From Bacilli bacterium (GTDB lineage Bacteria; Bacillota_I; Bacilli_A; Izemoplasmatales; Hujiaoplasmataceae), in the NCBI GenBank assembly GCA_016935815.1, contig JAFGQH010000059.1, positions 1 to 43,863 of the forward strand: a stretch of 43,863 nt of DNA, in the 5' to 3' direction. The notes under the pieces are model-generated. The model did not search any database. It was not told the origin of the DNA and saw only the letters and a list, made by a program, of their open reading frames with translations. Position numbers and translations under genes: made by a program. Below, one piece after another: positions 12,785-29,220 of the stretch (positions are counted from its first letter, which is position 1; each line of letters starts with the position of its first letter).

Positions 12785-14086
12785 ATGATGTTTCAAAAAA
12801 CAAGCGGAATACACATCGATGGTAGAAAGGCAATGTCCAAGAAACTGACAATGGAAGAATATTTCAATCCCGAGTATGTTTACATCCATCTGATCAAAAA
12901 CATCGGTCCTTTGAAAGCGACAGTCGCTGCCGGTGATGAGGTCAAGATAGGACAAGTGGTTGCTGTTCGGGAAGGATTCGGAGAAATGAATGTTTCTTCA
13001 TCTGTCAGTGGGACAGTTACAGGGATCAAAAAGGTTTGGCATTCCAGTGGAAGAATGGTCGAAGCGATTGAAATCAAAAATGATTTTCAAAACACAATGG
13101 ACCCCCACATTAAGCCAAACAAAAACATTGACTCTTTGACCAGAGAAGAATACATTGAAAAGATGAAGCTGGCAGGGCTTACTGGTTTAGGTGGGGCAGG
13201 ATTTCCTACTTATATCAAGTACATCACACATCTACCTATTGATACAGTCATTATCAATGCTGTAGAATGTGAACCGTATTTGACATGTGATTTTAGCTTC
13301 ATATTGGAATATCCGGAAAAACTGATGAAAGGCCTTCATCACTTTATCAAAGCGGCAAACGCAAAAAGAGGCGTCATAGTCTACAAAAACTACAACAAGG
13401 AAATCAAAGAATCCTTGCAGAAATACCTTCATAAATATCCGAATATCTCTCTCTTCGAAGTGGAGGATGTCTATCCGGCAGGATGGGAAAAATACATCAT
13501 CGAACGGGTCACGGGAAAAACCTACACTGGACTTCCAAGTGAAGTGGGAGTCATCGTGAACAATTCTTCAACTGCGATTGTGTTCGCAGATATCGTGGAA
13601 CACAATATTCCACTGATTTCTCGACCAATCACAATCACTGGAGAAGGGGTCAAAAAACCTAGAAACTTCTTTGTACCAATTGGAACAAAAGTGAGTGAAT
13701 TGGTTGAAAAATGTGAAGGTTACGCAGATGGTCTTTTACCGACAAAGGCGAATTACATTGCCGGTGGACCGATGACCGGACGAGCGATCTTAATCGATGA
13801 TCTGATCGTCAATGACACCTTGGGTGCCGTTATTGTCAAACCGTTTGTGGAGAAATTGCATCCGGAATGTCTTGGATGCGGAAAATGTGCCGATGTTTGT
13901 CCAGCATATTTGACTCCAACCGAAATTAAAAAAGCAGTTGAAAGCAATGACTTGAATCTTATAAAAGCATTGAATGCAAACAGTTGTGTTCAATGCGGAC
14001 TCTGCTCTTATGTTTGTCCGTCTCATGTCGAGATTACGGACGCTGTCGTCAAAGCGAAAGACATGTTGCGGAAGGGGGCGAAATAA
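12785..14086 (+). CDS. rnfC: Rnf electron transport complex subunit C
   Basis: The 433-residue peripheral subunit is the NADH-binding part of the Rnf complex, which couples ferredoxin:NAD+ oxidoreduction to Na+ or H+ transport. The N terminus has the SGIHIDGRK start and a barrel-sandwich domain. GLGGAGFPTYIK and AVECEPYLTCD mark the Complex-I-51K-like flavin/NADH region. The C terminus has two 4Fe-4S motifs, Cys362/365/368/372 and Cys401/404/407/411. The ribosome binding site GGAGG (12775-12779) serves ATG 12785 or 12788. It leads a seven-gene operon with one-base or short overlaps throughout. Confidence 0.95.
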   Translation: MMFQKTSGIHIDGRKAMSKKLTMEEYFNPEYVYIHLIKNIGPLKATVAAGDEVKIGQVVAVREGFGEMNVSSSVSGTVTGIKKVWHSSGRMVEAIEIKNDFQNTMDPHIKPNKNIDSLTREEYIEKMKLAGLTGLGGAGFPTYIKYITHLPIDTVIINAVECEPYLTCDFSFILEYPEKLMKGLHHFIKAANAKRGVIVYKNYNKEIKESLQKYLHKYPNISLFEVEDVYPAGWEKYIIERVTGKTYTGLPSEVGVIVNNSSTAIVFADIVEHNIPLISRPITITGEGVKKPRNFFVPIGTKVSELVEKCEGYADGLLPTKANYIAGGPMTGRAILIDDLIVNDTLGAVIVKPFVEKLHPECLGCGKCADVCPAYLTPTEIKKAVESNDLNLIKALNANSCVQCGLCSYVCPSHVEITDAVVKAKDMLRKGAK

Positions 14087-15279
14087 TGGCTAGATTTGCG
14101 AATGGAAAAGCACCTTATCTGAGGATGGCGGATCAAGACAATAAAGGAACCGGCATCATCATGAGAGATTTCCTCATTGGATTAATGCCAGTTATTTTGT
14201 TTGCCTGGTACAAGAACGGTATTGCAGTCTTTATGGATGGAAATACAACGTTCTTTGGTATGTTATATCCTTTATTCTTTATTTTGGCAGGGGCAGTATC
14301 TTCGATGTTGATGGAAGCCGTTTTCTTCTTCTTTACAGATCCGGAAGCAAGAACTCTTCCTTCTTTGATGAAGAAACTATCCTTATCATACGCAATCATT
14401 CCGGGATTGATTCTGGCTTTAATGTTACCAATGTATACACCAATCTGGGTATTGATGTTTGGTACTTTCATTGGGAACATTGTCGGGAAGATGATTTTTG
14501 GGGGATTTGGTCACAATATCTGGAACCCGGCATTATTGGGATACGCTGTAATCAAATTCACATTTATGGGTCTGATCAATGCGTCAGGTGGATATTTTAA
14601 CCCATCAGAGATGATTGCTTTATATGATGCGACTGCTGGTTCTACACCACTTGTTGTTCTTTCCAGCTCGCCATTTAGTTATGATTCCATCGTAGCACCG
14701 TTTGGAAACCTATGGACATTTTTCGTTGGTATGACACCAGGCGGAATGGGAGAAACTTCTGTTATGGTTATGCTGGTAAGTTATTTATGGCTTAGTTTCC
14801 GAAAAGTCATCAAATGGACAACACCACTTATCTATGTCGGAGCGGTCTTCGGATTATCTTGGATTGTGGGAGCTCTAAATGGAGATGCAGGACTTTGGTT
14901 CCCTGTTTACAGTATTCTATCCGGAGGTTTGATGTATGGAGCTGTGTTCATGATTACAGAACCGGTCACTACACCAAAGAATCCTCTAGGAAAAATATAT
15001 TTTGCGTTGATGTTGGCGGTATTGACTGTTTTATTCCGCTTTGTGGGTAGTTTACCTGAAGGAGTCGGAACATCGATTATTGTCATGAACATCTTCGCAT
15101 TACCAATTGATAAATATACAGCAATCATTCGTGCCAATCGATGGAGAAAGCCGGCATGGTTCAAAATCGCCACTCTGGCAGTCATCTTGATTGCAATTGG
15201 ACTGTATGCGGTAATTAAAGCTGGAAATGTATATACAGATATCATTTTACCAATCCTTCCTTTTGGAGGTGTGATGTAA
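14086..15279 (+). CDS. rnfD: Rnf electron transport complex subunit D
   Basis: This 397-residue membrane subunit carries covalently bound FMN. The attachment site reads DATAGST (Asp181 to Thr187), matching the Dxx-x-G-A/S-T flavinylation pattern, so Thr187 is the predicted FMN acceptor. About nine or ten transmembrane helices are visible. The frame is open further upstream, but the ATG at 14086 overlaps the rnfC stop (TAATG) and gives the family N terminus (YLRMADQDN). FMN transfer requires ApbE, which is not in the window. Confidence 0.93.
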   Translation: MARFANGKAPYLRMADQDNKGTGIIMRDFLIGLMPVILFAWYKNGIAVFMDGNTTFFGMLYPLFFILAGAVSSMLMEAVFFFFTDPEARTLPSLMKKLSLSYAIIPGLILALMLPMYTPIWVLMFGTFIGNIVGKMIFGGFGHNIWNPALLGYAVIKFTFMGLINASGGYFNPSEMIALYDATAGSTPLVVLSSSPFSYDSIVAPFGNLWTFFVGMTPGGMGETSVMVMLVSYLWLSFRKVIKWTTPLIYVGAVFGLSWIVGALNGDAGLWFPVYSILSGGLMYGAVFMITEPVTTPKNPLGKIYFALMLAVLTVLFRFVGSLPEGVGTSIIVMNIFALPIDKYTAIIRANRWRKPAWFKIATLAVILIAIGLYAVIKAGNVYTDIILPILPFGGVM

Positions 15280-15280
15280 T

Positions 15281-15796
15281 ATGAAATGGTTTTTACATGA
15301 TAAAGGTTTGATTCTGCTCTTGATTTTTATAACAGTAGTGGTGTTTGCGGTTGGTGGAGTATATTTCGATTCCATAGCAGTAGAACAGACTACGACTACA
15401 GAAGCAGAAACAACCACAACTAACGCCGCTACCGATGTAACAACGGCTGCGAACACAGATCCGCATTTCGTCAGTTACGACGAAACAACGAGAGTTTTGG
15501 AATTGAAAACCAATGGATTCCATGGATACATCTATGTCGAATTCACATTAAATGATACATTGGATGGTGTGGCATCTTATCAAATCAAGACATCGACAGA
15601 AACCTATGATGATAGTCACAATGACAATTATACCGGAGGACCTGTACCAAGTGTCGAGACATCGATACTGGATCAATACATGGCAGATACCAGCCCGGTT
15701 GATGGAGTAGCTGGAGCAACTGAAACCAGCAATTCCATCCTAGAGATGCTTGTTGCATTGGATGAATTCATCGCTAGCCTGAATGGAGGTAACTGA
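15281..15796 (+). CDS. Extra Rnf-associated FMN-binding membrane protein (RnfG-like, X)
   Basis: The 171-residue protein has one N-terminal membrane anchor (residues 10-28), a Thr/Glu-rich stalk (36-58) and an extracytoplasmic FMN-binding domain. The segment GFHGYIYVEF followed by ETY matches the start of FMN_bind domains, and VDGVAGATETSNSI contains the flavinylation motif with Thr147 as acceptor. It sits between rnfD and rnfG, where canonical operons have only rnfG, and has its own GGAGGTG ribosome binding site (15265-15271). Because the next gene keeps the RnfG membrane topology but a degenerate motif, this subunit may carry the FMN that RnfG normally holds. Confidence 0.8.
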   Translation: MKWFLHDKGLILLLIFITVVVFAVGGVYFDSIAVEQTTTTEAETTTTNAATDVTTAANTDPHFVSYDETTRVLELKTNGFHGYIYVEFTLNDTLDGVASYQIKTSTETYDDSHNDNYTGGPVPSVETSILDQYMADTSPVDGVAGATETSNSILEMLVALDEFIASLNGGN

Positions 15797-15797
15797 T

Positions 15798-16364
15798 ATG
15801 AGTGGAGGAATTAAATCTGGACTTGTACTATTGGTTCTTGGTATCATCAGTGGTCTCTTACTCGCATCTGTAAATGCTTGGACGGATCCTTATATCAAAG
15901 AAATCGAATTGCAGGAGCAATACGATGCTTTGAAGGAATTCTATTTTGATCCTACGGATCCCAATTATGCAACCTATCAAGTCAGTGATTTGTATGACTT
16001 AACAAAACTGGATGTGAATGAAGGCTCAATTTCAACCATCTTGGTCTTAAAAGATAAGACCTCAGGTACATTAGAATCTTTGGCATATGTTGCTAGTGGA
16101 AATGGATATAATGGAGCTGTTACGATGCTAATTGTGGTTGATTCTGACTTGACAGTAAGAGGGTATAAAATTCTTACTCAAAATGAGAATCCACCAATTC
16201 AAGAAGATTTTATCAATTACGACTATAATGTTTCTGCGATTACAGACTTGTCACAATTTGATGCAATCGCCCATGCAACCTTCACTTCTAATGCTGTGTT
16301 GGCATGTTTCAATGCAGTATCGGAAAGAGCGGCAAATGACTTTGGAGGTGGTTTGAATGAATAA
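15798..16364 (+). CDS. rnfG: Rnf electron transport complex subunit G, with altered FMN motif
   Basis: The 188-residue protein has one N-terminal membrane segment (about 7-26) and an extracytoplasmic FMN_bind-type domain, the topology of RnfG. The usual ETPG is replaced by NENPP (129-133). The SGAT flavinylation motif is replaced by AHAT (Asp155 to Thr161, followed by FTSNAV). The acceptor Thr is retained, so FMN attachment remains possible but uncertain. An in-frame ATG at 15783 is inside the ribosome binding site of the ATG at 15798 (GGAGGT 15785-15790), so the latter is preferred. It overlaps rnfE by eight bases. Confidence 0.85.
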   Translation: MSGGIKSGLVLLVLGIISGLLLASVNAWTDPYIKEIELQEQYDALKEFYFDPTDPNYATYQVSDLYDLTKLDVNEGSISTILVLKDKTSGTLESLAYVASGNGYNGAVTMLIVVDSDLTVRGYKILTQNENPPIQEDFINYDYNVSAITDLSQFDAIAHATFTSNAVLACFNAVSERAANDFGGGLNE

Positions 16365-17028
16365 ACTTCAAAACTTCACCAAAGGATTCATCAAAGAAAA
16401 TCCATTATTCGTTACAGTGCTAGGTATGTGTCCGTCATTGGCCGTTACAACTAGCTTGGAAAAAGCCCTGGGAATGGGTATGGGAGTATTCTTCGTATTG
16501 GTTTTATCCAATTTCATTGTCTCTTTGGTTATGAGTAATCCAAAGATTGCGGAATTGGTACGTCCGGTTCGTATTCCGGTTTATATCGTTATTATCGCCA
16601 CTTTGGTTACAATCGTGGAAATGTTGATGCATGCATTCTTATATGACCTCTATAAATCATTGGGAGTATTCATTCCATTGATCGTTGTGAACTGTATCAT
16701 TCTAGGTAGAGCAGAAGCGTTTGCATCCGAAAACAAACCACTGGATTCCGTATTGGATGGTATGGGAATGGCGTTAGGATTTACAGGAGCGATTGTACTT
16801 ATCAGTTTGTTCCGTGAAATTTTGGGTGCTGGAACCATTACTATATGGGGAAATTTGGTATTGAATTTGAATTTCATATTTAATTTCTTACATATTAAAC
16901 CAATCGACTTATTTGTCCAACCAGCTGGAGCGTTCCTATCATTTGGTTTGATCTTAGCTACGTTGACTGCGATAGGTAACAGTTTCAAACCAAAATCGAT
17001 TGTGAAAGGAGCGACTGCAAATGAATAA
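16357..17028 (+). CDS. rnfE: Rnf electron transport complex subunit E
   Basis: This 223-residue integral membrane subunit has about six helices. Characteristic blocks are ENPLFVTVLGMCPSLAVTT near the N terminus and NCIILGRAEAFAS in the fourth helix. Their cysteines bind the membrane-embedded iron-sulfur cluster shared with RnfA. GGAGGTG (16344-16350) supports the ATG at 16357, and both ends overlap neighbouring genes by eight bases. It is paralogous to RnfA encoded next. Confidence 0.95.
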   Translation: MNKLQNFTKGFIKENPLFVTVLGMCPSLAVTTSLEKALGMGMGVFFVLVLSNFIVSLVMSNPKIAELVRPVRIPVYIVIIATLVTIVEMLMHAFLYDLYKSLGVFIPLIVVNCIILGRAEAFASENKPLDSVLDGMGMALGFTGAIVLISLFREILGAGTITIWGNLVLNLNFIFNFLHIKPIDLFVQPAGAFLSFGLILATLTAIGNSFKPKSIVKGATANE

Positions 17029-17596
17029 TTTGATTGCATTGGCTTTCGCGGCCTTTATCACAGAAAATATCATCTTGACTCAATTCTTGGGAATTTGTCC
17101 ATTCTTGGGGGTTTCTACAAAACGTAAGAATGCACTTGGAATGGGATTTGCAGTCTTGTTTGTCATGCTGATATCCAGTTCAGTCACTTATTTATTGTAT
17201 ACCTTTGTACTCAAGACATTATCGATTGAATATATGAAGACGATCGTATTCATCTTAGTGATTGCATCTCTTGTACAAATGGTTGAGACTTTTATCAAGA
17301 AGGTGTCTCCTGCATTATATAAAGCATTGGGTATTTACTTGCCATTGATTACCACCAACTGCGCTGTTCTTGGTGTGGCACTGTTGAATATCACGAAAGA
17401 GAATAATTTCGTTGAAACCGTAGTCTATACAACCTTCATCGGACTTGGATTCATCTTCGTAATGTATATCTTCTCTATGTTGAGAGAAAAAATCGACAAA
17501 GCACCAGTTCCAAAAGCGTTTCAGGGAATTCCGATTGCCTTGATCGTCGCTTCGATTTTGGCCGTGATCTTCTCAAGATTCGGAGGTATCATCTAA
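17021..17596 (+). CDS. rnfA: Rnf electron transport complex subunit A
   Basis: The 191-residue membrane protein has six helices and the RnfA signatures ENIILTQFLGICPFLGVS and TTNCAVLGVAL. The paired cysteines complete the intramembrane iron-sulfur site with RnfE. AAAGGAG (17005-17011) is the ribosome binding site, and the stop overlaps the rnfB start as TAATG. The length is normal for the family. Confidence 0.95.
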   Translation: MNNLIALAFAAFITENIILTQFLGICPFLGVSTKRKNALGMGFAVLFVMLISSSVTYLLYTFVLKTLSIEYMKTIVFILVIASLVQMVETFIKKVSPALYKALGIYLPLITTNCAVLGVALLNITKENNFVETVVYTTFIGLGFIFVMYIFSMLREKIDKAPVPKAFQGIPIALIVASILAVIFSRFGGII

Positions 17597-17895
17597 TGTG
17601 GGATATCTTATTACCAGCTTTGGTTTTGGCAATCACCGGATTTATTCTTGGAGGACTCATTTTCATAGTCGGAAAAGCGTTCTATGTAGAAGAGGATCCA
17701 AGCATAGAAGAAGTGGTCGAATTACTACCTAAATACAATTGTGGTGCCTGTGGGTATCCCGGTTGTAAAGAAATGGCATCCGGTTTATTGGCTGGCGAAG
17801 CGAAGCCGGCTTTGTGCAAACCGATGAAAAAGGAAGCAATTCCCGCTTTGGAAGCATATCTTAAAGAGTATTTCGCAAAAAAGAAAGAAGCATAG
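17596..17895 (+). CDS. rnfB: Short Rnf subunit B lacking the ferredoxin domain
   Basis: The 99-residue product retains only the N-terminal membrane anchor (about 4-28) and the single 4Fe-4S domain with Cys49, Cys52, Cys57 and Cys74 (YNCGACGYPGCKEMA then LCKP). Canonical RnfB proteins continue with a dicluster ferredoxin domain and are roughly 190 to over 300 residues long. Here a short Lys-rich tail ends at TAG, and a terminator begins within about ten bases, so there is no remnant of the missing part. Electron entry from ferredoxin must use this single cluster, the RnfC clusters, or a separate protein. GGAGGT at 17582-17587 supports the start. Confidence 0.9.
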   Translation: MWDILLPALVLAITGFILGGLIFIVGKAFYVEEDPSIEEVVELLPKYNCGACGYPGCKEMASGLLAGEAKPALCKPMKKEAIPALEAYLKEYFAKKKEA

Positions 17896-17902
17896 AAAAC
17901 AC

Positions 17903-17930
17903 AAAAAGGCAGGTTACACTGCCTTTTTTA
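17903..17930 (+). terminator. Intrinsic terminator of the Rnf operon
   Basis: AAAAAGGCAG (17903-17912) pairs perfectly with CTGCCTTTTT (17919-17928) around a six-base loop. It separates the Rnf operon from the flavin-type lipoprotein gene. Confidence 0.9.
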
Positions 17931-18051: not shown

Positions 18052-18080
18052 AAAAGTATCAAAGAGGAAAGGAGGATATG

Positions 18081-19040
18081 ATGAAAAAACTGTATATCGC
18101 ACTGCTGACTCTGATGTCGGTCTTGATCCTTAGTGGATGTAGCCAGAGCGAATTCAGGGTAGACGGCAAATTTACCGCCTATGAAGTGTCCATTCACAGC
18201 AATGCCCCGCAGTTGACCTATGTTACTGTTACCGTCGAAGACGGTGAAGTCACCGAATACCACATTGATGTACGTCAAGGATATGTTCTGACGACAGAAG
18301 GCGATACCACTGAATATTCATTTCATTGGAATGAAATGACAAAAAAGGAATTGGAATTCGCATATGGCATGAAGGATTATGGTACGGGATATGACTTGAT
18401 TGACGGTGCATGGGTCTTAAACGAAGACTCGCCTGAATTCGAGTGGCATGAACAAGCCTACTTGATTGAGCAACATCTATTAGAGTTTGGTTTAGAGACA
18501 GTGGAGACCATCGAAGGAAGATTCTCCAACATTGCAGGAGTCACAATCAATGAAAGCGGCTTGCTGTTATTGGTGGAAGAAGCATTGGCATTGGCAAAAG
18601 CAGGAAAGTTTCACGCGCTTCTCTGCACAGCTGATGATTTGTATATCGCATCGATGGTGGTGAATGACTCTGGAGAGATTTCAGATTTAACTCTAGACGT
18701 TTTGCAAGGAGATCCGGAAGGGGACACCTTTGCTTGGAATGAATTTACGAAGCAAGAACTCGCAGACGAGTATGGTATGAAAGGTATTGGCGCAGCTTAT
18801 GAATTCTCAAATGGATCATGGGTTGCAAGCGACGAAAAAACATCTTTGGAATGGTACGAACAAGCCAACCTGATCACCGATTACATTGAAACCTATGGCT
18901 GGGATGACAATATCCAAGCCCTGGCGGATCGCGGCGCAACGATTGACGGAACGACCTTGATTGACGATTTAGCCGGCGTGACTATCAGAAGTCAGACTTT
19001 CTACGACGTATTGACAGTATTATTTCAATGCGTTGGTTAA
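18081..19040 (+). CDS. Lipoprotein with two tandem FMN-binding-like domains
   Basis: The 319-residue protein has a lipoprotein signal peptide ending LILSGC (Cys20), followed by an internal duplication of about 140 residues each (about 28-170 and 175-313). Shared landmarks are WNEMTKKEL (83-91) with WNEFTKQEL (219-227), EYGMKGIG-type segments, a W-Y/H-E-Q-A helix, and AGVT at 152-155 and 298-301. Each repeat starts with strands like FMN_bind domains and ends where that family has SGAT, here AGVT, so Thr155 and Thr301 could carry FMN. This resembles, in layout, the twin-flavin lipoproteins of extracellular electron transfer such as PplA. Start 18081 is preferred because GGAGG is at 18071-18075. 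Function is inferred from location after Rnf. Confidence 0.65.
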   Translation: MKKLYIALLTLMSVLILSGCSQSEFRVDGKFTAYEVSIHSNAPQLTYVTVTVEDGEVTEYHIDVRQGYVLTTEGDTTEYSFHWNEMTKKELEFAYGMKDYGTGYDLIDGAWVLNEDSPEFEWHEQAYLIEQHLLEFGLETVETIEGRFSNIAGVTINESGLLLLVEEALALAKAGKFHALLCTADDLYIASMVVNDSGEISDLTLDVLQGDPEGDTFAWNEFTKQELADEYGMKGIGAAYEFSNGSWVASDEKTSLEWYEQANLITDYIETYGWDDNIQALADRGATIDGTTLIDDLAGVTIRSQTFYDVLTVLFQCVG

Positions 19041-22815: not shown

Positions 22816-24333
22816 GTGGTTGAAATTAATGGTTCAAACTTGACGCTCGACTCTTTTTCCAAAGTCGTTCTGGATCATGAAGAATTACAAATTTCCGATA
22901 CCAGCAAAACCCAAGTAAACAATGCGAGACTCTATGTTAAGGAAGTCATCAAATCCGAAGTTCCAACGTATGGAATCAATACCGGATTTGGAAAACTTTC
23001 TGTTGTTTCCATTGCCAAAGAAGATGTCAACAAACTCCAAGAGAATTTGTTGAAGAGTCATGCTTGCGGTGTCGGTGAACCGTTCTCTGAAGAAGTAGTG
23101 AGAGGAATGCTCTTGCTACGGATCAATGCCTTGATCAAAGGGTATAGTGGGATACGGTTATCAGTGATAGAAAAAATGGTAGAATTCTTGAACAAGAATC
23201 TGATTCCAATTGTATATTCTCAAGGAAGTCTTGGCGCAAGTGGCGATCTGGCTCCTTTAAGTCATATGGCTTTGCCACTCTTGGGTCTTGGAGAAGTATA
23301 CTATCAAGGTAAGAAAATGGAAGCCAAAAATGGTTTGGAATTAGCAGGCATAACACCGATTGAAATGTTAGAAGCAAAAGAGGGTTTATCTTTGATCAAT
23401 GGAACCCAAGCAATGACTTCAGTCGCTGCTTTGGCATTGCTGGAAAGCTATGATTTGATGTGTCTTTCCGAGCATGTTTTGGGTTTGACTATGGAGGCGT
23501 TGACAGGTATTGATGAAGTATTTTATGATAAAATCCATCTCTTAAGAAATCAACCAGGCCAAATCAAAGTTGCCAAAACAATGAGGGGAATTCTAAAGGA
23601 TTCCAAATTAACTACAAAACAAGGCGAGTTACGTGTTCAAGACGCGTATTCTTTACGTTGCTCGCCGCAAGTATTGGGTGCTTCATTGGACGCAATCGAT
23701 TATTGCCGCAATGTAGTTGAAAACGAAATGAACGCGGTAACCGATAATCCATTGGTTTTCATTGATGATCAAAAAGTTATCAGTGCAGGTAATTTCCATG
23801 GGCAGCCAATCGCCATAGCTATGGATTTCCTTGCAATTGCGATGAGCGAACTGGCAAATATATCCGAACGCAGAATCGAACGTATGGTCAATACCAATTT
23901 ATCCAATGGTTTGCCTGCTTTTTTAGTTCATAAACCAGGAATCAATTCTGGCTTTATGATCGTTCAATATAGTGCTGCATCCTTGGTCAGCGAGAATAAA
24001 GCCTTAGCTCATCCTGCAAGCGTGGACTCCATTCCATCTTCAGCGAATCAAGAAGACCACGTCTCTATGGGAACAATCTCCGCAAGAAAAACCAGAGATA
24101 TCATCAATAATTCGCAAAAAGTCATCGCAATGGAACTATTTACCGCTTGTCAAGCGCTGAATTTCCGTGATCTGAATAAATTGTCTAGTCGTTCCAAAGA
24201 AATCTACACCTATGTTCGAAAAGAGATTCCGTTTATTCAGGAAGATACCATCATGTATAAAATGATTCATTCTGTCATTGAAATGACAAAGCGATCCGAA
24301 TTCAAACAGTTAATCAATTTGGAGTGTGATTGA
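22816..24333 (+). CDS. hutH: Histidine ammonia-lyase
   Basis: The 505-residue enzyme removes ammonia from histidine to give urocanate, the first step of histidine degradation. The MIO cofactor arises from Ala141-Ser142-Gly143 in SLGASGDLAPLSHM. Family blocks GINTGFGKL, ALIKGYSGIR, NGTQAM, QDAYSLRCSPQ and DNPLVF follow in order. Translation starts at GTG 22816, supported by AGGTGA (22805-22810), and no ATG fits the family N terminus. It is the first gene of a six-gene operon. Confidence 0.96.
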   Translation: MVEINGSNLTLDSFSKVVLDHEELQISDTSKTQVNNARLYVKEVIKSEVPTYGINTGFGKLSVVSIAKEDVNKLQENLLKSHACGVGEPFSEEVVRGMLLLRINALIKGYSGIRLSVIEKMVEFLNKNLIPIVYSQGSLGASGDLAPLSHMALPLLGLGEVYYQGKKMEAKNGLELAGITPIEMLEAKEGLSLINGTQAMTSVAALALLESYDLMCLSEHVLGLTMEALTGIDEVFYDKIHLLRNQPGQIKVAKTMRGILKDSKLTTKQGELRVQDAYSLRCSPQVLGASLDAIDYCRNVVENEMNAVTDNPLVFIDDQKVISAGNFHGQPIAIAMDFLAIAMSELANISERRIERMVNTNLSNGLPAFLVHKPGINSGFMIVQYSAASLVSENKALAHPASVDSIPSSANQEDHVSMGTISARKTRDIINNSQKVIAMELFTACQALNFRDLNKLSSRSKEIYTYVRKEIPFIQEDTIMYKMIHSVIEMTKRSEFKQLINLECD

Positions 24334-24334
24334 T

Positions 24335-26353
24335 ATGAACAAAGCCATCACACTAAGAGATATCTTCCAGACTCTTCCTGAACCGAAACCATTTCAGGAA
24401 GGAATCAGAAGAGCACCAAAAAGAGAGTTCAATCTCACCAAAGTAGAAACCTCTTTGGCATTAAAGAATGCTCTACGTTATATTCCCAAAGAATGGCATG
24501 AGATCCTCGCTCCAGAATTTCTGGAAGAGTTGCTGACAAGAGGCAAAATATACGGCTACCGTTTCCGGCCATTTGGTAGGATTTTCGGAAAATCCATCAA
24601 TGAATATGAAGCGAATACAATCGAAGGAAAAGCATTTCAAGTCATGATTGACAACAATCTTGATTTTGAGATTGCACTTTATCCTTATGAACTCGTCACT
24701 TATGGGGAAACTGGTTCTGTGTTTCAAAACTGGATGCAATACCATTTGACCAAGAAATACCTGGAGATTATGAATGACGAACAAACGTTGGTCCTTCTGT
24801 CTGGACACCCTCTTGGTTTATTCAAATCACATAAACATTCTCCACGAGTGATATTGACAAACGGACTGATGATCGGTGCGTTTGATAATCTTCACCAGTT
24901 TAATCGAGCTTCCAGTCTGGGAGTTGCCAACTATGGGCAGATGACCGCCGGTGGTTGGATGTATATCGGTCCGCAAGGAATCGTACACGGCACCTATTCC
25001 ACTTTGCTGAATGCCGGCAGATCGAAACTCGGCATTCCGGAAAAAGAAGATTTGAAAGGTAAACTGTTTGTGTCTTCGGGTCTAGGAGGTATGAGCGGTG
25101 CTCAAGGCAAAGCCATTGAAATCAGTGGTGGTGTCGGAATCATCGCCGAAGTGGATCATTCTAGAATTGAAACAAGATACAATCAAGGCTGGGTATCTCA
25201 TATTGCCAAAACGGAAGCAGAAGCATTCCAATTGGCCAAAGAAGCACAAAGAGATGGAAAAGCAACAGCGATTGCTTATCATGGGAATATTGTAAATTTA
25301 TTGGAATATGCCGTCAAGGAAAACATCCATATCGACCTATTAAGTGATCAGACTAGTTGTCATGCGGTATATGATGGCGGGTATTGTCCTGTCGGGATTC
25401 GTTTTGAAGAAAGAACAAGACTATTAAGAGAAGATAAAAAGCAATTTGAAAGCCAGGTAAATCAAACACTACATCGCCATTATAATGTAATCAAACAAAT
25501 CGTTAGAAACGGGACCTACTTCTTTGATTATGGAAATTCCTTCATGAAGGCAATCTACGATTCCGGAATCCAAGAAATCTGTAAGAATGGGAAAGACGAT
25601 CTGGATGGTTTTATTTGGCCGTCTTACGTAGAAGATATCATGGGACCAATCCTGTTCGATTATGGCTACGGTCCATTCCGTTGGGTTTGTTTATCCGGAA
25701 AAGAAGAAGATTTGGATCAAACCGATCAAGCGGCTATGGATTGCATCGACAAAGACAGAAGATTCCAGGATTTAGACAATTACAACTGGATTCGTGATGC
25801 AAAGAAAAACAAATTGGTTGTGGGAACCAAAGCAAGAATCCTTTATCAAGACGCCTATGGAAGATTGAAAATCGCTTTAAAATTCAATGAGATGATTCGC
25901 AATGGCGAAATCGGCCCTGTTATGTTGGGTCGAGATCATCATGATACTGGAGGAACCGATTCTCCATTCAGAGAGACATCCAATATCAAGGATGGATCCA
26001 ATATCATGGCGGATATGGCGACACAAGTCGCTCTTGGAAATACAGCAAGAGGAATGTCTCTTGTTACTTTGCACAATGGCGGCGGCGCGGGAATCGGCAA
26101 GGTCATCAACGGCGGATACGGAATGGTTCTAGACGGTAGCGAAAGAGTGGACGAGATATTGAATACAGCGATGCTTCACGATGTGATGGTCGGTGTTACT
26201 CGTCGTGCTTGGGCAAGAAATCAAAACTCAATCGATACAGTGGTAGAATACAATGCGTTGGAGAACAACTCGATGCTAAGCGTACCGTTCCTTACGGATG
26301 AAGATGCCATTTTATCACTTGTGGAAGAAGCATATCAAAAAGGTGGAAAATAA
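24335..26353 (+). CDS. hutU: Urocanate hydratase
   Basis: This 672-residue enzyme uses tightly bound NAD+ as an electrophile to hydrate urocanate to imidazolonepropionate. Typical blocks are QTAGGWMYIGPQG-like (here TAGGWMYIGPQG), SSGLGGMSGAQGKA for NAD+ binding, DQTSCHAVYDGGYCPVG with the active-site Cys region and GRDHHDTGGTDSPFRET. The length matches the longer form seen in anaerobic Firmicutes rather than the ~555-residue proteobacterial form. The ATG at 24335 is one base after the hutH stop and is served by GGAG (24321-24324). Confidence 0.95.
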   Translation: MNKAITLRDIFQTLPEPKPFQEGIRRAPKREFNLTKVETSLALKNALRYIPKEWHEILAPEFLEELLTRGKIYGYRFRPFGRIFGKSINEYEANTIEGKAFQVMIDNNLDFEIALYPYELVTYGETGSVFQNWMQYHLTKKYLEIMNDEQTLVLLSGHPLGLFKSHKHSPRVILTNGLMIGAFDNLHQFNRASSLGVANYGQMTAGGWMYIGPQGIVHGTYSTLLNAGRSKLGIPEKEDLKGKLFVSSGLGGMSGAQGKAIEISGGVGIIAEVDHSRIETRYNQGWVSHIAKTEAEAFQLAKEAQRDGKATAIAYHGNIVNLLEYAVKENIHIDLLSDQTSCHAVYDGGYCPVGIRFEERTRLLREDKKQFESQVNQTLHRHYNVIKQIVRNGTYFFDYGNSFMKAIYDSGIQEICKNGKDDLDGFIWPSYVEDIMGPILFDYGYGPFRWVCLSGKEEDLDQTDQAAMDCIDKDRRFQDLDNYNWIRDAKKNKLVVGTKARILYQDAYGRLKIALKFNEMIRNGEIGPVMLGRDHHDTGGTDSPFRETSNIKDGSNIMADMATQVALGNTARGMSLVTLHNGGGAGIGKVINGGYGMVLDGSERVDEILNTAMLHDVMVGVTRRAWARNQNSIDTVVEYNALENNSMLSVPFLTDEDAILSLVEEAYQKGGK

Positions 26354-26354
26354 G

Positions 26355-27314
26355 ATGAAAATAGTGGAATGCGTTCCAAATTTCTCCGAAGGTAGAGATA
26401 TCGACAAAATCGAACGAATCATGTCGGTTGTCAAAACCAATGCTTTTATTCGTTTGATTAACTATGAATCCGATGCCGACTATAATCGTACGGTTGTGAC
26501 CCTCGTGGGAGAACCGGATAAGATGGTCGATTTGATTCTTGACTTAACAAAAATCTGTCTTCAAGAAATCGATCTGAATCATCACAGTGGCGAACATGCA
26601 AGAATGGGTGCCATTGATGTGATTCCTTTCATCCCTATAAGCGACATTTCCATGGCGGAATGTGTCGCATTGTCAGAACAATGTGCAAGAAGAATCAACG
26701 AGAAGTATGATATCCCTGTTTTCTTGTATGCTGAGGCTGCAAAAAAACCGGAAAGAGAGTTGTTACCGAACATTCGCAAAGGCGAATTTGAAGGGATGAA
26801 AACAAAAATCCAAGAATCTGAATGGAAACCTGATTTTGGAAAACCAGAAATCCATCCGACATTTGGTACTGTCGCGGTTGGAGCTAGAGATTTTTTAATC
26901 GCTTATAATATTGATTTGGCTACAGAAGACGAAAATCCAGCGAAGCAGATTGCCAAAGCAATTCGAAAATCTTCCGGCGGATTTCAATATATCCAAGCAG
27001 GACCGGTATATCTGGAAAACAGAAAACATACGCAAGTTACTATGAATATTTTGAATTATAAAAAGAATCCAATTTATCGTATCTTTGAAACAGTACGGAT
27101 GGAAGCCAAACAATATCAAGTGGAAGTCACTGGAGCTGAAATCGTCGGCTTGATACCGAAGGATGCTTTGATTCGTTCGTTGAAATATTATTACAAGTCT
27201 CAAAAAATTGCGTTCCCTGAAAATATCTCATTTGAGATGATTGTGGAAGATGCTAGAAAATACTTGTTATTTCGAGATTTCAACGAGACCAAAATCATAG
27301 ATTATTTTCTATAG
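26355..27314 (+). CDS. ftcD: Glutamate formimidoyltransferase
   Basis: The 319-residue enzyme transfers the formimino group of formiminoglutamate to tetrahydrofolate, releasing glutamate. The N-terminal signature ECVPNFSEGRD and the block HHSGEHARMGAIDVIPFIP with catalytic His residues are clear, and GTVAVGARDFLIAYNIDL starts the second subdomain. It has only the transferase domains, because the cyclodeaminase is a separate gene two positions downstream. AGGTGG (26341-26346) selects the ATG at 26355, two bases after hutU ends. Confidence 0.94.
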   Translation: MKIVECVPNFSEGRDIDKIERIMSVVKTNAFIRLINYESDADYNRTVVTLVGEPDKMVDLILDLTKICLQEIDLNHHSGEHARMGAIDVIPFIPISDISMAECVALSEQCARRINEKYDIPVFLYAEAAKKPERELLPNIRKGEFEGMKTKIQESEWKPDFGKPEIHPTFGTVAVGARDFLIAYNIDLATEDENPAKQIAKAIRKSSGGFQYIQAGPVYLENRKHTQVTMNILNYKKNPIYRIFETVRMEAKQYQVEVTGAEIVGLIPKDALIRSLKYYYKSQKIAFPENISFEMIVEDARKYLLFRDFNETKIIDYFL

Positions 27315-27322
27315 GAGAGCAT

Positions 27323-28582
27323 ATGGCACAACGGACACTTATCAAAAATATCAAATATTGTTATACATCGAACGAGTCACCTCCTGTCAAAGGTCATGAC
27401 ATGTCCAAAATCGATGTATTTGACAATGTCAACATACTGATTGAAGATGATAGGATCAGCAAAATCAGTAAAAACCCAATTGAAGAACCTGGTTTGGATT
27501 TGATCTATGACGCGTCGGGATTGATTTGTGTTCCGGGATTCATCGATTCTCATACCCACTTGGTATTTGGAGGGTCGAGAGAACATGAGTTCGCCAAGAA
27601 ACTTGCCGGTGTTCCATATCTTGAAATTTTAAAACAAGGTGGGGGAATCCTTAGTACTGTCAAGCAGACCAAAAACGCAACCTTTGATGAGTTGTACAGA
27701 CAAGCCAAGAAATCATTGGATGAGATGTTGCTATTCGGGGTTACAACAATCGAAGCTAAATCGGGCTACGGGCTATCGCTAGACACTGAAATCAAACAAC
27801 TTGAAGTATTGAGAAAGTTGAATGAAACTCATCCAATCGATATTCACATCACGTATTTAGGTGCCCACGCATTTCCAAAGGAATATGAAAATCACAGATC
27901 TGATTTCATCCAACAGATTCAAAGTGATTTGAAAATCATTCACCAGAAAGGATTGGCAGAATCCGTCGATGTCTTCTGTGAAGTTGGAGTATTCTCTGCA
28001 GAAGAAACCAAAAAGATTTTGGATACAGCTAAGTCGTTAGGATTTAAATTGCGTGTTCATACGGATGAAATCGAATCAATAGGAGGTACTTTGGTAGCTT
28101 TGGATTTAAAGGCTAAGACAGTTGACCATTTGATGGCTTTGAAAGAAGAGGATATGGCTTTACTTGCAAAAAGTGATACAATAGCTAACCTCTTACCATC
28201 CACATCGTTCTTTTTAAACAAGGAATATGCTCCTGCCAGAAAAATGATTGATGCCGGAGTCGCATTGGCGATATCCAGCGACTACAATCCTGGTTCGACG
28301 CCATCTGAGAATTATCAACTTACCATGCAAATCGCAGCCAATAAGCTTCGGATGGTTCCAACGGAAGTTCTGACAGCGGCGACTGTCAATCCAGCATTTA
28401 GTCTTGATATTTCCAATACACATGGCAAGATTTCTGTTGGATACAAAGCGGACTTAGTTCTATTGGATGTCAATAATCTAGATTATTTTCTATATCACTA
28501 TGGGATCAATCATACAAAAGCGGTATTCAAATCAGGGCGATTGGTCGTTGATCATCGCCAATTATTGGAGGAAGAACTATGA
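27323..28582 (+). CDS. hutI: Imidazolonepropionase
   Basis: This 419-residue metal-dependent amidohydrolase opens imidazolonepropionate to formiminoglutamate. Key segments are HTHLVFGGSREHEFAKKLAG with the first metal His pair, a YLGAHAFP strand, LRVHTDEIE with another ligand His, and SSDYNPGSTPSENYQ with the catalytic Asp. GGAGAG precedes the ATG after an eight-base gap from ftcD. The stop overlaps the fchA start by ATGA. Confidence 0.95.
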   Translation: MAQRTLIKNIKYCYTSNESPPVKGHDMSKIDVFDNVNILIEDDRISKISKNPIEEPGLDLIYDASGLICVPGFIDSHTHLVFGGSREHEFAKKLAGVPYLEILKQGGGILSTVKQTKNATFDELYRQAKKSLDEMLLFGVTTIEAKSGYGLSLDTEIKQLEVLRKLNETHPIDIHITYLGAHAFPKEYENHRSDFIQQIQSDLKIIHQKGLAESVDVFCEVGVFSAEETKKILDTAKSLGFKLRVHTDEIESIGGTLVALDLKAKTVDHLMALKEEDMALLAKSDTIANLLPSTSFFLNKEYAPARKMIDAGVALAISSDYNPGSTPSENYQLTMQIAANKLRMVPTEVLTAATVNPAFSLDISNTHGKISVGYKADLVLLDVNNLDYFLYHYGINHTKAVFKSGRLVVDHRQLLEEEL

Positions 28583-29220
28583 AACTCGTCGACATGAAAC
28601 TTGAGTCATTCTTACATGAATTAGCTTCCAATTCACCAGCACCTGGAGGAGGGAGTGTCAGTGCATTAGCCGGCGCTAATGCTGCATCGCTTGTAATCAT
28701 GGTATCCAGCCTGACTACAAACAAGAAGAAATACAAAGCATTACCGGAACAGGAGCAGAATAAATATCAAGATATTATTTGCAAGTTCGAACATGCAAAA
28801 AAGCAGTTCACAATGTATATCGATGAAGATACAGAATCGTTCAACCAAGTGATGGCTGCTTTCGGACTACCGAAACAATCTGAGGAAGAAATAATGACAA
28901 GAAATCAAGCGATAGAGACCGCAACAATCGCATCCATCAAGACACCGATGAAAGTTGCTCTTTTGGCACTTGAATTGATGAGAGAGATGGATATCGTGAT
29001 TCAAATGTCCAATCGCAACACTGTTTCAGATCAAGGAGTCGCGATATTGTTGCTACACTCTGCGTTTCTTGGAGCACTCATGAACGTTAAAATCAATTTG
29101 CCTGGATTGAGTCAAAAAGAACTGATAAAAGAATACAAAGATGTTATAATGGAACTAACAGATGAAGCAAGAGATATAAAGGATAGACTTCTAGAAGAAG
29201 TCAATTATCTTTTGGATTAG
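28579..29220 (+). CDS. fchA: Formimidoyltetrahydrofolate cyclodeaminase
   Basis: The 213-residue helical enzyme converts 5-formimino-THF to 5,10-methenyl-THF and ammonia, completing salvage of the histidine-derived one-carbon unit. The signature [20 protein letters not shown], near residue 17, is diagnostic for the folate-binding cyclodeaminase fold. It corresponds to the C-terminal domain of the fused mammalian FTCD, but is separate here. GGAGG (28567-28571) is the ribosome binding site. Confidence 0.93.

Follow-up and report, generated by a model that had tools for sequence, protein, structure and literature searches.

An Rnf operon with a predicted second outward FMN_bind protein, and a candidate outward electron branch, in a wall-less family of Izemoplasmatales

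The solved Rnf complexes (RnfABCDGE) of C. tetanomorphum (7ZC6), A. woodii (9ERI) and A. vinelandii (8AHX) have six core subunits encoded in one operon, among them an RnfC with NADH/FMN (flavin mononucleotide) and 4Fe-4S sites and one outward RnfG with a single transmembrane (TM) helix and an FMN_bind domain, which acts as the outer-face shuttle between RnfA/E and RnfD (PMC12174285). Here, we describe an Rnf operon in a 43,863-nucleotide stretch of DNA (the window; positions 1 to 43,863 of contig JAFGQH010000059.1, assembly GCA_016935815.1) from a Bacilli bacterium of the Izemoplasmatales family Hujiaoplasmataceae, in which an additional gene, called X below, is located between rnfD and rnfG. 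Open reading frames and Pfam and NCBIfam matches bear out the gene order rnfC-D-X-G-E-A-B given in an initial annotation, at 12785-17895 on the + strand and tightly packed; Pfam recognises every Rnf subunit, and all six (C, D, G, E, A, B) are in the one operon. Besides X, the locus differs from the solved systems in a 99-aa RnfB without Fer4 clusters, an extra C-terminal helix on RnfD, degenerate flavin motifs in RnfG and RnfD, and an adjoining FMN_bind-like lipoprotein. The X-bearing Rnf is a variant of a known machine and not a new machine, and we put at about even the chance that it works as a redox pump from which an accessory branch leads electrons outward, from RnfD or RnfG through X and the lipoprotein to the outside.

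X (15281..15796, + strand; 171 aa) consists of a TM helix, a linker and one FMN_bind domain, and scores 26.2 bits against PF04205 as annotated protein (gathering cut-off 22) and 28.1 bits in a six-frame search of the genome. In the AlphaFold model (pLDDT 80), the N-terminal TM helix is followed by a disordered Thr-rich linker (residues 35-60) and a folded domain from residue 61; for X, Foldseek returned NqrC as a match at low confidence only. The flavinylation motif of X, reported as intact in the initial annotation (VAGAT, Thr147), is indeed DGVAGAT at Thr147, and fits the ApbE motif Dxx[S/T]GA[S/T] save for an Ala in place of Ser/Thr that is common in the family. An ApbE flavin transferase gene is present elsewhere in the same genome, and in 34/34 family genomes. 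By these features X is a membrane-anchored second outward FMN_bind protein of conserved position; we infer FMN on X, a place for X in the Rnf complex, and an external acceptor.

The interval between rnfD and rnfG was visible at least partly in 32 genomes of this wall-less family, and the C-D-X-G order is family-wide: X with an FMN domain is found in 30 (a contig end truncates one of them), G004 has a TM stub, and G016 has no X. With about 30 related genomes placing X between D and G, the arrangement is more than chance. Most genera have two FMN_bind domains in X, the genome matching Hujiaoplasma nucleasis zrk29 has three, and the window's genus has a shortened form. The flavin site of the C-terminal domain is Thr/Ser in 29/30 X proteins (the G004 stub being the exception) and the full GA[ST] in 23, and the first-domain site, read from the table with three short X lacking it left out, is Thr/Ser in all 23 proteins that have it. 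In G004, which belongs to the same genus as the window, what remains of X between rnfD and rnfG is a membrane stub of ~70 residues with LLGGGA at its end (L041, 54-263, contig 22), no lipoprotein follows rnfB, and an RnfG with AHVT is the sole FMN_bind protein left in the operon. These surveys rule out a recent duplication of rnfG as the source of X, and do not support the initial annotation's idea of subfunctionalisation after duplication: X is family-wide and usually two-domain.

Beyond the family, the nearest family of the same order (f3) has C-D-G-E-A-B without X or lipoprotein, and a second family of the order (f2) has several Rnf operons, some with RnfGs of 380-670 aa that contain several FMN_bind-like stretches. 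Outside the order, family f18 carries X as a separate gene in three loci (L140, L143, L163), and has X-like domains fused to the C-terminus of RnfD in five others (L157, L161, L162, L165, L166), whose RnfDs are 562-762 aa long and match NQR2_RnfD plus one or two FMN_bind domains in Pfam. Such fusions, which occur in at least two families, were located at L157 4848-7133, L161 5302-7509, L165 2315-4516, L166 1412-3616, L162 1520-3205 and L142 5518-6945. The fusion to RnfD suggests that the two associate physically and that X lies on the outer side. Rnf clusters with multi-flavinylated RnfG are similar in carrying extra FMN_bind domains on Rnf, for which a second path to outside acceptors, the same bifurcation as considered here, has been proposed (Meheust 2021, PMC8238504). 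They differ in that the additional domains here belong to a gene of their own with a TM helix (or to RnfD in the other family), RnfG being single-domain, and in that the X of the window adds one extra domain only. The NQR/RNF-like unidirectional systems (Meheust 2021) share outward electron export by an RnfD/RnfG-type pair, whereas the window has all six Rnf subunits and an RnfD in which Pfam finds no C-terminal NAD-binding PF00175 domain. Separately, several family members have a Na+-NQR-like set in addition to Rnf; in G007 its order is B-C-D-E-F with no adjoining NqrA gene (L072, 2305-6196), and D/E/A sets like it are also seen in L075, L074, L058, L068 and L076.

The lipoprotein gene (18078..19040, + strand; 320 aa) encodes a product that we take to resemble PplA, with two FMN_bind-like domains recognised by profile match and AlphaFold/Foldseek. 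Each domain has an AGVT site, at Thr156 and Thr302. By profile the protein matches 2kzx (E 8e-9), with IDNVAGVT aligned to TDAISGAT, and CPE2226 marginally (E 0.14); its AlphaFold model (pLDDT 93) has 2kzx as best Foldseek match (E 1.1e-3, prob 1.00). The gene is found 3' of rnfB in 25 of the 28 family loci in which the DNA downstream can be seen; several family f18 loci have it there as well. Like the PplA-like lipoproteins and FMN-bind2 tandem proteins of Listeria extracellular electron transfer (EET) and of Erysipelotrichaceae (PMC10979944), it is an outer, membrane-bound lipoprotein with two ~150-aa flavin-type domains and a likely ApbE substrate; it differs in having AGVT instead of SGAT, in being below Pfam detection in the window copy, and in standing beside Rnf and not in an NDH-type EET locus. 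The lipoprotein has grown to 829 aa, with four AGVT/TGVS-type sites, in the genome that matches H. nucleasis zrk29 (L042, 8636-11122).

In the proposed outward branch, ApbE would attach FMN to Thr147 of X; RnfG and the lipoprotein would probably be flavinylated too, with lower efficiency. The outer-face flavins would receive electrons either from ferredoxin, by way of RnfB and RnfA/E, or from NADH, by way of RnfC and RnfD. RnfG would continue to serve RnfA/E and RnfD as their normal ion-coupled shuttle. X most likely sits at RnfD/RnfG on the outer face, because it is encoded between rnfD and rnfG and is fused to RnfD elsewhere; from there it could tap electrons from RnfD or RnfG and hand them to the two-domain lipoprotein, the natural next carrier, and then to a small external acceptor. 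X and the lipoprotein should face the environment directly in a wall-less cell: H. nucleasis zrk29 is wall-less by transmission electron microscopy (PMC10470597), and a penicillin-binding protein transpeptidase is absent from 33/34 family genomes. The FMN_bind match and intact motif of X, the conservation of C-D-X-G, the RnfD fusions, the extra RnfD helix behind its Lys/Arg-rich stretch, the lipoprotein beside rnfB, the presence of ApbE and the absence of the transpeptidase all speak for this branch, and the suggestion in the initial annotation that a second outer-side flavoprotein offers electrons an exit holds as the most economical reading of X, given its outward FMN_bind domain and conserved position.

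Several observations weigh against the branch. X is lost in G016 and reduced in G004 while the Rnf operon persists, which makes X non-essential. Three genomes lack the lipoprotein beside rnfB, and X is kept in two of them (G014, G019), so X and the lipoprotein are not tied strictly to each other, and in families f12 and f16 lipoprotein homologues stand alone beside lepA, away from Rnf. Pfam is blind to the copy in the window and matches 2/25 relatives weakly, and the lipoprotein profile matches the X and RnfG alignments weakly; its link to FMN_bind comes from the solved-structure matches and not from this profile comparison. Its AGVT motif is suboptimal, an A-to-V change in the motif costing about half of flavinylation in one tested substrate (PMC12052999). 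In the immediate neighbourhood of the operon, no terminal reductase or cytochrome was found.

Some of the same facts would suit X as an additional flavin within the RnfA/E-RnfG-RnfD circuit, acting as relay or regulator and aiding transfer or coupling, with no outward branch and the lipoprotein as an unrelated neighbour. The position of X between D and G and its fusion to D in another family are as expected at a G-D interface, and the genomes and families in which the lipoprotein is absent beside rnfB or stands apart from Rnf fit an unrelated neighbour. An internal role is nevertheless rather unlikely in our view, as the two to three FMN domains of most X proteins are better suited to transfer over distance than to a single hop, the operon is otherwise kept where X is missing or reduced, and the Rnf of the nearest family in the order works without X. 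That X and the lipoprotein would instead spend Rnf electrons on a specific non-respiratory surface reaction, for example to reduce iron for its uptake or to scavenge oxygen or peroxide, we consider distinctly unlikely. Flavinylated proteins have been tied to iron assimilation (Meheust 2021, PMC8238504), the reduced multi-FMN protein SaFMN3 consumes oxygen (PMC10339131), and the outer membrane face would be exposed in a wall-less cell, but no gene for an iron transporter or a peroxidase was seen in the operon's flanks in the window.

A further possibility concerns RnfG (15783..16364, + strand; 193 aa, or 188 aa from the internal ATG 15798, the start position in most relatives), which has a TM helix and one FMN_bind domain (PF04205, 44.7 bits), the second domain being on X. 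Its motif is DAIAHAT, with the Thr at residue 166 from ATG 15783 or residue 161 from ATG 15798, and in the family alignment ENPPIQ replaces the E[TS]PGxG, or a near variant of it, seen in most relatives. The initial annotation took RnfG to have lost canonical residues. Two changes are real and unusual: ENPPIQ, and the His two positions ahead of the Thr, where most relatives have Gly. RnfG retains the attachment Thr and the Asp, and the S to A in the flavinylation motif is common in the family and also seen in X. All are substitutions, which rules out a frameshift or error as the cause of the odd motifs. In published mutagenesis, imperfect motifs still take FMN, with A to V and G to A each leaving about 50% flavinylation (PMC12052999). 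Across the family, Thr/Ser is present at the flavin site in 31/31 RnfGs, and the full GA[ST] in only 10. The window RnfG is nonetheless drifting, judged by its rate: on the core-gene topology its terminal branch is 7.96x core, the highest of 26 taxa, against a tree-wide ratio of 1.98, and between the window and L037, where RnfC is 91% identical, X is 66% and RnfG 54% identical, compared with 74-87% for RnfG in most of the other pairs whose RnfCs are about 90% identical. The terminal rate of the window X is below average (2.31 vs 2.69 tree-wide). A ratio of nonsynonymous to synonymous rates (dN/dS) of about 0.19 for the window RnfG, with dS near saturation, indicates purifying selection; the values are from NG86 and are indicative only, YN00 being unusable through saturation.

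Such a pattern could arise if, after X was acquired, X came to carry the outer FMN of the core circuit, leaving the RnfG of the window lineage as an apo or altered-potential structural subunit. The His and the loss of E[TS]PGxG, the high RnfG rate beside the low X rate, and the canonical motif retained by X agree with this. We think it quite unlikely all the same, and the earlier proposal that X may hold the FMN and that RnfG may be structural or altered in redox potential sits uneasily with the same facts: RnfG keeps its motif Thr and Asp and its low dN/dS, Thr/Ser is retained in every family RnfG, and the G004 RnfG has the same His though its X is without an FMN domain. Across the family, the rates of X and RnfG are only weakly correlated (Spearman -0.29, p 0.23), and a reciprocal shift is not significant as a general rule. 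With X lacking an FMN domain in G004 and absent from G016, it is X and not RnfG that is dispensable. A hand-over may have taken place in the window species, but is not the reason that X exists. In the window's genus X appears to have shrunk to one flavin domain while RnfG drifts, so the balance between both would have shifted, with or without a hand-over. The fullest form of the outward branch, a flavin-only EET chain hard-wired to a branched respiratory Rnf in wall-less bacteria, with one to three flavins on X beside RnfD, an exposed di-flavin lipoprotein, and X starting to replace a decaying RnfG in the window lineage, is conceivable but in our judgement doubtful.

The remaining subunits, all on the + strand, are as follows. 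RnfC (12785..14086; 433 aa) has an NADH/FMN domain (Complex1_51K), an SLBB domain and two 4Fe-4S motifs by Pfam, and scores 316.9 bits against TIGR01945 (cut-off 245.95). RnfE (16357..17028; 223 aa; PF02508, 205 bits) and RnfA (17021..17596; 191 aa; PF02508, 189 bits) also exceed their NCBIfam cut-offs (TIGR01948, 226 vs 213 bits; TIGR01943, 236 vs 229 bits). RnfD (160 vs 207), RnfG (TIGR01947, 56.2 vs 102) and RnfB (55.5 vs 68.7) are below theirs, which marks the Rnf as divergent, and the identity of these three rests on synteny and Pfam. RnfD (14086..15279; 397 aa) has an NQR2_RnfD_RnfE domain (PF03116, 213 bits) and the flavin site DATAGSTP. Hydropathy shows its extra C-terminal hydrophobic helix at residues 359-377, after a Lys/Arg-rich stretch, so that the C-terminus should face outside; as a marker of X the helix was rejected, being common in the class also without X. 

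The minimal RnfB (17596..17895; 99 aa) has a TM helix and an iron-sulfur (FdI) domain (PF04060, 48.3 bits), aligns with only residues ~5-75 of solved RnfBs (174-333 aa), and has no Pfam match to Fer4 clusters. A frameshift or assembly end was ruled out as the cause, since a stop and a terminator-like hairpin follow and relatives have the same length; the hairpin, with A/T runs on both sides (17903..17928), is a consensus match from a scan. The short form is found throughout the order, where other FeS matches are frames of about 560-580 aa, too long for RnfB, and short frames prevail in the Rnf loci read across the class, together with some frames of 183-194 aa with two FeS domains. A literature search on truncated RnfB or Izemoplasmatales EET returned nothing relevant. 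The RnfB of T. maritima is likewise FdI only, without Fer4 clusters (PMC9588780); the minimal RnfB is a state already known in kind, and was dropped as a broadly novel feature. One family locus (L043, in G006) has an rnfB of 61 aa with the tail IQLWCLWASGL, seemingly frameshifted or truncated in an otherwise intact operon, which may be a sequencing error.

A promoter scan gave matches at chance level only. Downstream in the window, an apparent histidine-degradation cluster (22816-29220), read from translations only, comprises consecutive genes for a histidine ammonia-lyase, urocanase, formiminotransferase, imidazolonepropionase and cyclodeaminase-like protein. The same genome has a third FMN_bind protein of 130 aa with a single TM helix and DTIAGATYSS (L073, 6086-6478, contig 67), and many family members have single-domain FMN_bind frames of 126-146 aa resembling it, away from Rnf.

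Rnf is usually drawn as a closed ferredoxin-to-NAD+ circuit. An additional outward flavoprotein that is conserved, as a separate gene in one family and as part of RnfD in another, opens the proposed branch to testing. The cultured, wall-less H. nucleasis zrk29 (CP051151) matches a carrier of the full arrangement, and in such cells flavins at the outer face would be in direct contact with the medium. The family also offers a natural series, in which X has from three flavin domains down to none and the RnfG motifs are intact or eroded, that may tell which outer flavin Rnf needs.

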